Positions 51,646-56,912 of a stretch of DNA of 64,000 bases are shown here, in pieces. Under the pieces are notes generated by a model. The model did no database searches. It was not told where the DNA came from and saw nothing but the letters and a program-made list of their open reading frames with translations. Source of the stretch: Planctomycetota bacterium (GTDB taxonomy: Bacteria > Planctomycetota > UBA1135 > UBA2386); contig VGZG01000005.1 in the NCBI GenBank assembly GCA_016872675.1, positions 1-64,000 on the forward strand, given 5' to 3'. Made by a program: the position numbers and the translations under genes. Every line of letters begins with the position of its first letter. Positions within the stretch are counted from its first letter, which is position 1.

Positions 51646-52629
51646 CTAGCCGCGGGCGCGGACACCGATACGGTCGCGCACGATCGCCATCGTCGCTTCG
51701 GCGGCGGCGCGGGCCTTGGCGCCGCCGGCGGCGAGGATCTCGTCGAGTCGGGCAGGGTTGTCGCGCAGGGCGGCAGCGCGCTCGCGGATCGGCCCCTTGA
51801 TCGCCTCCATGTTGGCGCACAGCGTCCTCTTGCAGTCGACGCAGCCGAGTTGGGCGCTGCGGCAGCCGGCGGCGATCTCCTCACGCTGGGCCGCCGGCGT
51901 GAAGAAGCCATGCCACGCGAACATGTTGCAGACCTCGGGCGTGCCCTTGTCCGACTTGCGCAGGCGCGCCGGGTCGGTCTTGGCGCCGCGCAGCTTCTGC
52001 ATCGTCTCGTCGGCGGTCTCGAACAGTCCGACCTCGTTGCCCTTCGACTTCGACATCTTGGCTTCGCCGTCGAGGCCGATGACGCGGGGCGCCTTGCTGC
52101 GCACAGTCTGCGGGTCCGGGAACGTGTCGCCGTAGACGAAGTTGAACCGGCGCAGCGTCTCGCGCGCGAGTTCGAGGTGCTGGTCCTGGTCCTCGCCCAC
52201 CGGCACGCGCTCAGCCCGATAGAGGGCGATGTCGGCGGTCTGCAGGATCGGGTAGGTGAACAGGCCGGCGTTGACGTTCTCCGGCTGCTGCGCGCTCTTG
52301 TCCTTGAACTGCGTCATGCGGTTCAGATCGCCGAGCGGCGTCAGACAGGTCAGGATCCAGCCGAGCTCGGCGTGCTGCGGCACGTCGGACTGCACGAACA
52401 ACGTCGCGCGCTCCGGATCGACGCCGCTGGCCAGCATGCCGATCGCGACTTCGCGCACGTTGCGCCGCAGATCCTCGGCCTTGGGCCGCTGCGTCAGCGC
52501 GTGCAGGTCAACGACGCAGAAGAACGACTCGTACTGCTGCTGCAACTCGACGAAGTTGACGAGCGCGCCGAGGTAGTTGCCGATGTGCAGGGCGCCGGTC
52601 GGCTGGATGCCGGACATGGTGCGGACCAT
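51646..52629 (-). CDS. trpS: Tryptophanyl-tRNA synthetase
   Basis: The 327-residue class I synthetase has HIGH-type SGIQPTGALHIGNYLGAL and KMSKSKGN. The tryptophan/ATP site segment GEDQDQHLELARETLRRFN is typical of bacterial TrpRS. It charges the tRNA-Trp gene found at 43024-43099. The start is the ATG at 52629; another ATG four codons on is possible. It is 22 bases upstream of the small lipoprotein gene on the same strand. Confidence 0.95.
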   Translation of the reverse strand: MVRTMSGIQPTGALHIGNYLGALVNFVELQQQYESFFCVVDLHALTQRPKAEDLRRNVREVAIGMLASGVDPERATLFVQSDVPQHAELGWILTCLTPLGDLNRMTQFKDKSAQQPENVNAGLFTYPILQTADIALYRAERVPVGEDQDQHLELARETLRRFNFVYGDTFPDPQTVRSKAPRVIGLDGEAKMSKSKGNEVGLFETADETMQKLRGAKTDPARLRKSDKGTPEVCNMFAWHGFFTPAAQREEIAAGCRSAQLGCVDCKRTLCANMEAIKGPIRERAAALRDNPARLDEILAAGGAKARAAAEATMAIVRDRIGVRARG

Positions 52630-52766
52630 GCCAACGGTATACAGGAGCCGCCGTGCCGGCGACAAAGGTCGCATCGCCGCGCCGCCGATCGCGCTGAGCG
52701 GCGCTTCTCGCGCGCGAACGCCGCGTTGGCGCGCCGCACCCCAGCTCCGCTATCCTCCGTTCCTTC

Positions 52767-54209
52767 ATGCGGCTGCGCCCAGCCCTCGCCCTCGCGGCCT
52801 TGCTCGCGACCAGCGCCTGCGCGCTGGCCCCGCGCGAACTCAACCTCGCGCCGGTGTGGTTCCACCGGCTCGACGACAACGGCAGCATGCTGGAGTGGGA
52901 CGCGGTCTGGCCGCTGCTGCACTACGAGCGCACGCCGGCGGGCGGCGACGATCTGCGCGTCCGGCCGTTCTGGCGGCGCGTCACCGAACCGGGCGTCGAG
53001 GACGCGGTCGAGCACCAGTTTCTCTGGCCGTTCGGCCGCGTGCGCAGCTACCCCGACGAGACGGCGGCGCGGCTGTGGCCGCTGTGGAGCTGGCGCAGCC
53101 GGCCCAACGAGGAGGGCACGCGCGACGTCGACTGGTACGCGCTGTTCCCGCTCTTCTGGGGTGGCGACTCAGCGGACGACCGCGAGGACTACTTCGCCTT
53201 CCTGCCGTTCTTCGCCGACATCCCGGACTTCCTGACCTACGACCGCTTCCGGACGTTCCTGTTCCCGCTGTGGGTCGGGCTCGACAAGGGCGGCCACAGC
53301 CATGACCTGTTCTTTTGGCCGCTCGTCGGCGCCAGCCACTGCGCCGATACCGAGCACCGCTGGTGCCGCGTGCTGCCGTTCTTCGGCGTCGACGTCGCGC
53401 CGGGCCGGCACGACCGCCGCTCGATCCTGTGGCCGTTCTTCACCTGGAGCACCGAGAACGAAGACGCCGCCGGCGGGCCGGTGAAGAGCTTCCTGTTCTG
53501 GCCATTCTTCGGTTGGCGCACCGGCCCCGAAGTCTCCGGCTGGACGGCGCTGTGGCCATTCTTCTCGCACGTCGAGAAGGCGAACCAATTCGGCTCGACG
53601 ACGATCCTCTGGCCGTTCTTCAAGTCGGCGTGGAACCGGAGCGACGACGACCTCAAGCAGTGGTGGCTGTGGCCGCTCGTAGGCCGCGTCGAGGCGACCA
53701 ACCAGCGCGCCTGGACGTTCGCCTGGCCGATCATCTGGTGGCGGCAATACGACGATCTCGACGGCTTCGTCGACCAGCAATGGATCGTGCCGTTCTTCTG
53801 GCGGATCGTGCAGCAAGCCAAGACCGGCGAGCGCGAGAGCTACGTCAAGCTCTGGCCGTTCTTCCACCGCAGCCAGAAGCGCAACCCCAATGGCGCGCAC
53901 ACCGGCGGCGAGTGGAGCGTGCTGTCGATCTGGCCGTGGCGCGACGGCAACGCCACCGGCTTCGAGGAGGCGTGGGGCTGGCTGTTCGAGCTCGCCCGCG
54001 GCGTGCGCCGGGCGATCGATGACCGCGGCGTCGACGTGGCCGGCCGGCTGTTCACCGCCCGCACGCGCGCGAGCGGCACGACCGCTAGCGTGCCCTTCCT
54101 CGGCAGCTACGAAGAGGATCGCGCTGGCGCACGGACGCTGCGGCTGTTCCAGTTCCTGCCGATCCCGCTGGGCGGCGGCGACGACGCCCGGGCGGAGCCC
54201 CCTCGATGA
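52767..54209 (+). CDS. WPFF-repeat lipoprotein upstream of an Mla-type cluster
   Basis: The 480-residue product starts with a hydrophobic leader ending SAC (Cys18) and then repeats a short aromatic motif, Trp-Pro-Phe-Phe or a close variant (FPLF, LPFF, VPFF), about twenty times: near residues 48, 66, 87, 104, 128, 146, 166, 184, 203, 222, 245, 263, 282, 302, 320, 341, 363, 389, 442 and 464. Spacing is mostly 17-24 residues, and the segments between are polar. This looks like beta-strands of a repeat fold, perhaps an outer-membrane or lipid-binding sheet. Its stop codon overlaps the next ATG (54206, ATGA), so it is translationally coupled to the MlaE-like gene. No known family recognised. Confidence 0.75.
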   Translation: MRLRPALALAALLATSACALAPRELNLAPVWFHRLDDNGSMLEWDAVWPLLHYERTPAGGDDLRVRPFWRRVTEPGVEDAVEHQFLWPFGRVRSYPDETAARLWPLWSWRSRPNEEGTRDVDWYALFPLFWGGDSADDREDYFAFLPFFADIPDFLTYDRFRTFLFPLWVGLDKGGHSHDLFFWPLVGASHCADTEHRWCRVLPFFGVDVAPGRHDRRSILWPFFTWSTENEDAAGGPVKSFLFWPFFGWRTGPEVSGWTALWPFFSHVEKANQFGSTTILWPFFKSAWNRSDDDLKQWWLWPLVGRVEATNQRAWTFAWPIIWWRQYDDLDGFVDQQWIVPFFWRIVQQAKTGERESYVKLWPFFHRSQKRNPNGAHTGGEWSVLSIWPWRDGNATGFEEAWGWLFELARGVRRAIDDRGVDVAGRLFTARTRASGTTASVPFLGSYEEDRAGARTLRLFQFLPIPLGGGDDARAEPPR

Positions 54210-55003
54210 ACCCGCTCGCCCACATCGGCAGCTTCGCGCTGCGGCGCGCCGACCGCGCCGGCTACGTCTGCGACCTGCTGGTGCGCACGGTCCTGTGCCT
54301 GCCGCGGGTCCGGCGGCGCTGGCGCTTCCTGCTCGACACCGCCTTCAACGCCGGCGTGCGCACGCTGCCGGTGACCATGGTCGTCGCCGCGTTCGCCGGC
54401 GCGATCCTGGCGATGCAGACGGGCATCGAACTGCGGCGCTTCGGCGACACCGCCGTGCTCGGCACCATCACGGCGCTGTCGATGTGCCGCGAAATGGGCC
54501 CGTTCATCACCGGCGTGATCCTCGCCGCCACCGTCGGCAGCTCGATCGCCGCGGAGCTCGGCACGATGACGGTCAGCGACGAAGTCACCGCGCTCGAGGT
54601 CATGTCGGTCGACCCCGTCGATTACCTCGTGCTGCCGCGCATGATCGCGATGGCGGTGATGTGCCCGGTGATCACCGTGCTCTCCGACCTGATCGGCATC
54701 TACGGCGGCAGCGTCGTCGCCGAGTTCAACCTCGGCGTCAGCCCGACCCTCTATTGGGTCAGCGCCAGGGAGGCCCTCACCTCGTCGGGCATGCTGCTGC
54801 CCAAGGAGGTCTACGTCGGGCTGCTCAAGTCGTTCATCTTCGGCGTCGTGATCGCGACCGTGAGCTGCGCCGCCGGCCTGCGAGCCAGCGGTGGCGCGCT
54901 CAGCGTCGGTCTCGCCGTGCAGGCCGCCGTGCGCGACTCGGTGATCCTGATCATCGTGCTCGGCTTCATCGTCACCTGGTTCTTCTACTTTCTCGCCGGA
55001 TGA
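54206..55003 (+). CDS. MlaE-family ABC permease
   Basis: A 265-residue polytopic protein with the MlaE/YrbE conserved core (LSMCREMGPFITGVILAA then SSIAAELGTMTV) and about five membrane spans. It forms the inner-membrane channel of MCE-type lipid transporters, here with the MlaF-like and MlaD-like proteins encoded next. The stop TGA overlaps the following ATG at 55000. Confidence 0.92.
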   Translation: MNPLAHIGSFALRRADRAGYVCDLLVRTVLCLPRVRRRWRFLLDTAFNAGVRTLPVTMVVAAFAGAILAMQTGIELRRFGDTAVLGTITALSMCREMGPFITGVILAATVGSSIAAELGTMTVSDEVTALEVMSVDPVDYLVLPRMIAMAVMCPVITVLSDLIGIYGGSVVAEFNLGVSPTLYWVSAREALTSSGMLLPKEVYVGLLKSFIFGVVIATVSCAAGLRASGGALSVGLAVQAAVRDSVILIIVLGFIVTWFFYFLAG

Positions 55004-55728
55004 TCGAACTGCGCGACGTGCACAAGCGACTCGGCGTCCGGCAGATCCTGGCCGGCATGACGCTGACCGTGCAGAAGGGCATGAACTTCGTGCTGATGGG
55101 CCCGTCCGGCAGCGGCAAGAGCGTCACGCTCAAGCACGTCATCGGCATCCTCAAGCCCGACAGCGGTTCGGCGCAGGTCGACGGCCAGGAGGTCCCGGCG
55201 ATGGACCGCAGCCAGCTGATGACGCTGCGTAAGCGCATGGGCTACCTGTTCCAGAACGGCGCGCTGATCAACTGGCTGACGGTGTTCGACAACGTCGCGC
55301 TGCCGCTGGAGGAGCACGCGCGCCTGCCCAAGGGCGAACTGGACGACCGCGTGCACCAGGTGCTGCGCCTCGTCGGCCTCGACCACGCCGCCGCGCAGTT
55401 CCCGCCGAGCATCTCTGGCGGCATGAAGCTGCGCGCCGGCCTCGCACGCGCGCTGGTAACCAACCCCGAGTACGTGCTCTACGACGAACCGAACGCCGGG
55501 CTCGACCCGATCATCAGTCGGCAGATTCATGAACTGATCGCGCGTGTGCGCGACGAACTGCACGTCACCGGCCTCATCGTCACCCACTCGAAGGCCTGCG
55601 CCACCGAGTGCGGCGATCGCATCGGCATCCTGGAGAACGGTAAGCTCGGCCTGCAGGGCACCGTCGACGAGATGCTGCACAGCGACCATCCCCTCGCCCG
55701 CGCCTTCCTCGGCGGCAGCGCCGACTGA
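55000..55728 (+). CDS. MlaF-family ABC transporter ATPase
   Basis: The 242-residue ATPase has Walker A GPSGSGKS, the signature SGGMKLRAGLARAL, Walker B YVLYDEPNAGLDP and the switch His in VTHSK. The SGGM form of the signature is typical of MlaF. It powers lipid movement by the MlaE-like permease. It is coupled to the upstream gene by ATGA and is 17 bases before the MCE gene. Confidence 0.93.
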   Translation: MIELRDVHKRLGVRQILAGMTLTVQKGMNFVLMGPSGSGKSVTLKHVIGILKPDSGSAQVDGQEVPAMDRSQLMTLRKRMGYLFQNGALINWLTVFDNVALPLEEHARLPKGELDDRVHQVLRLVGLDHAAAQFPPSISGGMKLRAGLARALVTNPEYVLYDEPNAGLDPIISRQIHELIARVRDELHVTGLIVTHSKACATECGDRIGILENGKLGLQGTVDEMLHSDHPLARAFLGGSAD

Positions 55729-55745
55729 ACCCAGCACAACCCACC

Positions 55746-56912
55746 ATGGACCGTATCCGTCGCGACACCCTGCTCGGCCTCGTGTTCTTCGGCAGCCTCG
55801 CGTTCCTGCTTTGGGCGACGCTCAATCTCACCGACCAGGCCTACGGCGACGCCAAGCTGCTGGTGCGCTTCGCCCAGGCCGGCAGTTGCGAAGTCGGCAC
55901 CAATGTGATGGTGCTCGGCAAGAAGATCGGCAAGGTCGGCGCCATCGACGTCGAATACGCCCATCCCGACCTGCCGATCGCGATGACGCTGCTGCTGCGC
56001 GAGACGATCCCGCTGTGTCAGGACTACACCATCTCGGTGAAGGACAACGGCGTGCTCGGCGGCAAACAGATCTACATCGACCCCGGCCGCGCCGCGAGCA
56101 CGTCGCCGATCGGACCTCTGCGCGGCGAGGTCGAGCCCGGCGCGTTCGACCAGATCGGCAACATCGCCAAGGGCGAGGGCAAGCTGGGCAGCAAGGCGAT
56201 CGACGCCGTCGAGGAGATCCGCAAGTTCTTCGCCAACATGAACGACCCAACGACGAGCATCGGCAAGCTCGTCACCGGCAGCAGCCTGCACGACCAACTG
56301 AGCGACGCCGCCGACAGCCTGGGCCGCGTCCTCGACGCCGTCATCGACCAGAAGGGCGCCATCGGCGACCTCGTGATGAACGCCGAGACGAAGGACAACC
56401 TGCACGGCTTCCTCGCCAGTCTGCGCTCGCTCGGCAAGAGGCTCGACACCGGCACGGACGGCGTGCTCGGCGTCCTGCTCAACGACGTCGACGCGGCGCG
56501 CAACGTGCAGTCGATCGTGCGCAACCTCGAGGTCATCGTCGCCGACGCGCGCAGCGGCAACGGCATCGTCGGCCGGCTGCTGCGCGACGACGAACTCGCC
56601 CGCCGCTTCACCAACCTGGTCGGCAACCTCGACACGCTGCTCGCCAACCTGACCAATCCCGAGGCCGGCGCGCTCGGCGCGCTCGCCGCCGATCCGGCGA
56701 CCGCGCGCGACATCAAGACCACGCTCGCCAACCTGCGCTTCGTCAGCGATCAACTCGCCCAGAAGCAGGGCCTGCTCGGCGCGCTGATCAGCGACACCGA
56801 CCTCGCCACGCGCTTCCGTCGCATCCTGACCCAGGTCAGCCGCGCCATCGAGGACGCCCGCGAGGCGGCCCCGATCGGCAGCTTCATCCAGGTCCTGATC
56901 GGCTACTGGTGA
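55746..56912 (+). CDS. MCE (MlaD-like) periplasmic lipid-binding protein
   Basis: The 388-residue protein has one N-terminal membrane anchor (about 8-27) and an MCE domain (about 35-110, with GSCEVGTNVMVLGKKIGKVG). A long helical region follows, in which hydrophobic heptads may form a coiled coil or tube, as in other long MCE proteins. It should extend lipid transport from the MlaE-like permease toward the outer membrane. The gene ends by overlapping the convergent DCC gene by 10 bases. Confidence 0.9.
   Translation: MDRIRRDTLLGLVFFGSLAFLLWATLNLTDQAYGDAKLLVRFAQAGSCEVGTNVMVLGKKIGKVGAIDVEYAHPDLPIAMTLLLRETIPLCQDYTISVKDNGVLGGKQIYIDPGRAASTSPIGPLRGEVEPGAFDQIGNIAKGEGKLGSKAIDAVEEIRKFFANMNDPTTSIGKLVTGSSLHDQLSDAADSLGRVLDAVIDQKGAIGDLVMNAETKDNLHGFLASLRSLGKRLDTGTDGVLGVLLNDVDAARNVQSIVRNLEVIVADARSGNGIVGRLLRDDELARRFTNLVGNLDTLLANLTNPEAGALGALAADPATARDIKTTLANLRFVSDQLAQKQGLLGALISDTDLATRFRRILTQVSRAIEDAREAAPIGSFIQVLIGYW

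Follow-up and report, generated by a model that had tools for sequence, protein, structure and literature searches.

How a Mla-type lipid transporter might be connected to the outer membrane of a planctomycete is the question raised by the stretch of DNA analysed here (positions 1 to 64,000 of contig VGZG01000005.1, assembly GCA_016872675.1, from a Planctomycetota bacterium), the full 64,000 nucleotides of which are called the window. Most diderm bacteria possess MlaEFD without MlaA or MlaC, and in a survey MlaABC was mostly confined to Proteobacteria (PMC10665443). That survey, the only treatment of planctomycete Mla found in our literature search, reported the MlaD barrel to be absent from Planctomycetes, which leaves the outer-membrane end to be accounted for, and it raised the question of whether non-homologous proteins stand in for the outer-membrane components that are missing (PMC10665443). 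In the window, a gene for a lipoprotein built largely of repeats around Trp-Pro (WP) heads an operon of mlaE-, mlaF- and mlaD-like genes. Its product is the best candidate for the missing connection between transporter and outer membrane. Sequence evidence and prediction provide the operon, the lipobox, co-inheritance with the transporter, the topology of the predicted sheet, a matching tail of MlaD and the lack of detectable MlaA and MlaC.

The operon and its inheritance

The cluster is composed of four genes:
52767..54209, + strand: WP-hairpin-repeat lipoprotein gene, 480 residues, from its open reading frame (ORF) and translation.
54206..55003, + strand: mlaE-like permease gene, 265 residues (PF02405, E = 1.4e-63).
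55000..55728, + strand: mlaF-like ATPase gene, 242 residues (ABC_tran).
55746..56912, + strand: gene for a long mlaD-like MCE protein, 388 residues (PF02470, E = 4.3e-10).

The stop of the lipoprotein gene and the start of mlaE overlap in ATGA at 54206-54209, mlaE and mlaF overlap in a further ATGA at 55000-55003, and a gap of 17 bases separates mlaF from mlaD. The ORF check agreed with the coordinates and both overlaps as given in a preliminary description of this locus. The permease domain PF02405 scored 214.7 bits against a Pfam cut-off of 22.5, the ATPase 103.6 bits against 25 for ABC_tran, and the single MCE domain PF02470, in the same operon as the ATPase, 40.1 bits against 25.1. The NCBIfam equivalog models of E. 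coli were not reached by the Mla proteins of the cluster: the mlaD product scored 39.9 bits with TIGR04430 against a cut-off of 135, and the best NCBIfam model for the ATPase, MlaF PRK11831, stayed below its cut-off.

It can be observed that this arrangement is widely conserved. Of 163 distinct homologues (all fetched loci, one in-frame fusion counted), 160 are immediately followed by mlaE, the exceptions being L119, L127 and L132; among the 40 loci taken from the phylum's other families, MlaE is directly downstream in 37. Class loci with enough flanking sequence display the order lipoprotein, MlaE, MlaF, MlaD, and the 4-base stop/start overlap between lipoprotein and mlaE recurs in most of them. 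In one genome (G299, L230:410-2839), the lipoprotein and MlaE are encoded in a single uninterrupted ORF of 810 codons where relatives have a stop, a single case that could be real or an assembly error. Near the MlaEFD loci of lineages without the lipoprotein, no WP-rich ORF was present. Furthermore, in a quick tree of 74 MlaE sequences the lipoprotein-adjacent MlaE formed one group with moderate support (80 in the Shimodaira-Hasegawa-like approximate likelihood-ratio test), outside which fell the MlaE paralogue of the same genome and E. coli MlaE. The sole exception among the labelled rows of the tree was L134_W2, an additional MlaE at its locus that sits on a very long branch.

Regarding distribution, the lipoprotein is present in 60 of 61 near relatives (whole genomes, own genome included) and in 108 of the 110 class genomes, usually as one full-length copy. 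Across the phylum it was found in 151 of 392 sampled genomes, 384 of which have MlaE, and the named records that it matched are Planctomycetota metagenome assemblies. One class genome, G059, has neither the lipoprotein nor an MlaE match, which fits joint loss or an assembly gap.

The MlaD of this operon also carries a signature at its C-terminus:
56847..56909, + strand: MlaD C-terminal tail, IEDAREAAPIGSFIQVLIGYW, signature of lipoprotein-linked MlaD.

The tail, with a consensus of roughly [ED]-x-R-E-x-x-P-[VI]-x-x-F-x-x-x-L-F-x-x-F, was found in 112 of 114 distinct lipoprotein-linked MlaD; of the two lacking the motif, the one at L116 shows a closely similar sequence, and the other, at L114, is an additional MlaD-like ORF located upstream of the lipoprotein. 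The motif was found in 0 of 27 unlinked MlaD, the two paralogues of the same genome included, although the profile used may have missed unlinked MlaD of weak similarity. Linked MlaD are apparently one lineage, so the tail is not independent of descent, but outside the tail distant class members are only about 24-33% identical to the window's MlaD. A partnership of the lipoprotein with MlaEFD is well supported by these sequence comparisons. The coupling to Mla genes proposed in the preliminary description gains strong support from the adjacency in 160 of 163 loci, the single MlaE group and the private MlaD tail, and homologues were met beside mlaEFD across the phylum.

The genes on either side lie on the opposite strand:
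51646..52674, - strand: trpS (PF00579), divergent neighbour, not part of the system.

This divergent position of trpS, 5' of the cluster, recurs in many class families and in some further ones, a long-lived neighbourhood with no obvious functional reason. At the distal end, mlaD and an opposite-strand gene for a DCC1-like thiol-disulfide oxidoreductase overlap tail to tail by 10 bases, at 56903-56912.

Repeats and predicted fold of the lipoprotein

Three regions can be distinguished in the lipoprotein:
52767..52820, + strand: signal peptide and lipobox with Cys18; Cys in 151 of the 157 relatives having a residue at that position, consensus mostly L-[AGS]-[GSA]-C.
52824..53921, + strand: 18 repeats of about 20 residues, core [LVF]-[WF]-P-[FL]-[FYW], each predicted as a pair of short beta-strands with the WP turn between them.
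53922..54206, + strand: non-repeat C-terminal region, with SVPFL..YE and LRLFQFLPI stretches conserved in alignments.

At position -3 of the lipobox the window's protein has Thr, and the position after the Cys is A, T, S or V in most relatives. The C-terminal region appears as a helix and strands, at low confidence, in the full-length model. In the protein, 21 [hydrophobic]-P-[hydrophobic] motifs were counted, whereas 1000 shuffled sequences averaged 5.1 and never had more than 12; the periodicity of the repeat exceeded that of every shuffle. The locus had first been described as carrying twenty copies of WPFF; the repeat is real, but it comprises 18 in-register degenerate copies with proline sites spaced 19.7 +/- 1.7 residues (mean, standard deviation), and only 5 exact WPFF strings. 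Of 17 listed sites, 16 have Pro in 93-100% of the 162 sequences and one, P49, in 50%.

Pfam, NCBIfam and PDB sequence searches gave no family for the lipoprotein, either as a single protein or with 33 relatives, in agreement with the earlier impression that the repeat belongs to no named family. Pfam returned nothing for the lipoprotein at E up to 1, and no family was matched by more than one of the 33 relatives at E up to 0.1. Likewise, no relatives were found in a search of viral contigs, and no paper pairing "WPFF" with a lipoprotein in the literature search. The WP-repeat lipoprotein is an undescribed repeat family without a Pfam or NCBIfam entry.

Larger paralogous WP-repeat proteins of 450-950 residues were observed at loci L236-L243 (for example, L236:3668-6031 and L238:4058-6508), where profiles detect no mla gene; several of them have a lipobox-like Cys. 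The WP repeat belongs to a wider undescribed superfamily and, since these relatives stand away from mla genes, the fold is broader than the Mla-linked system and the repeat is not specific to lipid transport. Such lipoproteins lend some weight to the alternative that the protein of the window merely shares an operon with mlaEFD and performs an unrelated envelope job, as an adhesin-like or structural surface lipoprotein. We consider this quite improbable, given that 160 of 163 cases, drawn from many families of the phylum, share the gene order, that start and stop overlap in most class loci, and that a single MlaE group is combined with a private MlaD tail.

The topology of the repeats was analysed, independently of structure prediction, through covariation in 162 sequences (effective number 124). 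Mutual information with average product correction was set aside as a sole measure because distant repeats scored too, contaminated by the symmetric conservation profile, and a contrast from direct-coupling analysis was used in its place. Pairs symmetric about WP scored 0.54 +/- 0.09 and pairs symmetric about the polar loops 0.71 +/- 0.10, while pairs expected for strands running through WP scored 0.07 +/- 0.07. Scores ranged from -0.02 to 0.10 when the paired repeats were two to four apart, and around WP the signal reached separations of about 13. This pattern indicates that WP is most likely a hairpin turn and that the repeats form a continuous antiparallel meander. AlphaFold2 models were built of the full-length protein, from an alignment of 9 sequences, and of a fragment. 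For the fragment 194-386, the best of five models reached a predicted local distance difference test (pLDDT) score of 90.3 (90, 88, 63, 60 and 45 for the five) and a predicted template modelling (pTM) score of 0.70, with 19 strands of about 6 residues and each WP between two strands. A Foldseek search with the fragment against the PDB gave no match with E below 0.001; its high-probability matches were TCP10, OspA, junctophilin and MORN1, all open single-layer sheets, and MORN proteins recurred among its matches in the viral library. Covariation and fragment model thus agree, and one continuous antiparallel single-layer meander turning at each WP is the most likely predicted arrangement.

Other folds were weighed against the same data. 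A beta-propeller is disfavoured by a hairpin signal without a one-in-four gap and by the single-layer matches of the confident fragment, a beta-solenoid of parallel coils by the little or no parallel signal between neighbouring repeats, and a V-shaped groove of through-strands by partner pairs at background in the direct-coupling analysis. The PDB matches of the full-length model, to beta-propellers and teneurin, were discarded because that model was poor.

The preliminary description had also envisaged a series of beta-strands with an aromatic belt. An all-beta, aromatic-rich repeat of about 20 residues would suit an outer-membrane beta-barrel or porin-like partner in which the aromatic motifs formed a transmembrane belt. 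In the fragment model, however, each strand is about 6 residues long, which is not enough to span a membrane, the chain turns at each WP, and the aromatic residues sit at a single set of hairpin turns. A lipobox in place of a plain signal peptide, hairpin covariation without through-strand pairing, and high-probability Foldseek matches to single-layer sheets point the same way, and a barrel is highly improbable. Prediction of the protein alone yielded no globular enzyme fold either; as modelled, the lipoprotein is neither an outer-membrane barrel nor an enzyme.

Comparison with known systems

Searches of the organism's own genome covered the whole assembly, which is 95% complete. Neither MlaA (PF04333) nor MlaC (PF05494) had a match in it, positive controls having worked, so that the absence first remarked on near the locus extends to the whole genome. 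Omp85 is present, and an outer membrane is therefore expected.

The closest comparisons each share only part of the design. As in the Mla system of E. coli (MlaFEDB, MlaC and MlaA), homologues of MlaE, MlaF and MlaD stand in one operon and there is an additional lipoprotein, but MlaA and MlaC are undetectable here, MlaD is long with a special tail, and the lipoprotein is unrelated to MlaA by Pfam scan. The minimal MlaEFD of the Veillonella type (PMC10665443) also combines a long MlaD with the lack of MlaA and MlaC; there MlaD carries its own outer-membrane barrel, whereas the MlaD of the window ends in a short conserved tail and its operon is headed by a separate lipoprotein gene. At another Planctomycetota locus, without the WPFF lipoprotein, an MlaD of 425 residues (L259) was observed whose end, WKHFKLYAGANRLF...FIVLIGLSAP, reads like outer-membrane barrel strands, in contrast with the reported absence of barrels from MlaD of the Planctomycetes-Verrucomicrobia-Chlamydiae group.

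PqiABC resembles the window as an MCE-protein operon with a dedicated lipoprotein and a proposed docking of the MCE C-terminus, PqiC being an outer-membrane lipoprotein ring that receives the C-terminus of PqiB (PMC10897342). PqiC, however, is a short octameric toroid of the ABC-auxiliary domain, for which the window's lipoprotein, a beta-hairpin repeat of 480 residues, gave no Pfam match. In architecture, MORN repeats are nearest: hairpins of 23 residues, each with two 6-residue strands, make up an elongated sheet whose groove is lined by aromatics, and 9 of them span about 80 Å (PMC7725318). The fragment model shares with them a repeat of about 20 residues with two 6-residue strands, an elongated single-layer sheet and an aromatic signature. 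The motif, by contrast, is L-W-P-F-F instead of YEGEW/GxG, the protein is a secreted lipoprotein, and the MORN motif of Pfam matched neither it nor its relatives. OspA of Borrelia and the G-box domain of TCP10/CPAP are likewise open single-layer antiparallel beta meanders, but with template modelling scores of 0.4 or less, no sequence relation and another context.

Two further MCE systems were observed in the same genome. The second, beside gyrB (L174:3056-6216, contig C7), has ATPase and MlaE permease fused in 500 residues, preceded by a protein of 554 residues with two MCE domains. The third (L173:4800-8419, contig C1) consists of a STAS-MlaE fusion, MlaF, MlaD and a small protein whose start resembles a lipobox and which has no Pfam match, possibly the lipoprotein partner of that system.

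Proposed role at the outer membrane

The lipoprotein is probably an envelope protein dedicated to one Planctomycetota subfamily of MlaEFD, docking the tip of MlaD at the outer membrane. After export and lipidation at Cys18 it would be anchored on the periplasmic face of a membrane, where its 18 repeats would form an elongated open single-layer antiparallel sheet of about 36 short strands. Trp-Pro-aromatic turns would line one edge of the sheet and polar Asp/Gly loops the other. The conserved C-terminal tails of the MlaD hexamer may then dock on the lipoprotein as partner on the outer-membrane side, by which the transporter would be linked to the outer membrane and lipids helped to pass between them; we infer this contact and location, as well as lipid binding and the direction of transport. 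The equivalent job would be that of MlaA and MlaC in E. coli Mla, and of the lipoprotein PqiC in Pqi. The earlier suggestion that the protein replaces MlaA/MlaC fits their absence from the genome, the role itself being proposed.

A competing explanation keeps the lipoprotein in the periplasm or at the inner membrane, where it would help to assemble or regulate MlaEFD as one of its subunits, either a scaffold or the functional equivalent of MlaB. The evidence from operon and MlaD tail suits any partner of MlaEFD, LolA was not detected in the genome, and the uninterrupted ORF with MlaE in one genome is also compatible with such a subunit. The conserved tail, however, is at the end of MlaD expected far from the inner membrane, and the residue after the lipobox Cys, mostly A, T, S or V, is not the Asp that acts as inner-membrane retention signal in enterobacteria, a rule which may not hold for Planctomycetota. 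This explanation is rather unlikely.

Several points also weigh against a docking partner at the outer membrane. The clade-restricted linkage and the shared MlaD tail reflect common descent in part. Most sampled Planctomycetota outside the class have MlaE without the lipoprotein, which is hence not needed for every MlaEFD. Since the LolA family was not detected, sorting of the lipoprotein to the outer membrane is not assured. The full-length AlphaFold2 model was poor (pLDDT 52, pTM 0.30, from 9 sequences), and for MORN repeats, the nearest architecture, the long-standing assumption of lipid binding has itself come into question (PMC7725318).

A bolder extension, which we hold to be unlikely, is that the 18 repeats form an aromatic-lined groove of about 150-170 Å, reaching much of the way across the periplasm as a lipid slide that takes over from the tip of MlaD. 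This length was obtained by extrapolation from MORN1, whose 9 repeats measure 80 Å, with some 36 strands contributing 4.4-4.8 Å apiece. If true, the groove would add a new class to the bridge-like lipid carriers, one without relation to TamB/AsmA or LptA. For Planctomycetota, the probable role as docking partner offers a concrete and testable candidate for the outer-membrane part, namely a conserved lipoprotein encoded in the operon, with a distinctive predicted fold and a matching MlaD tail.

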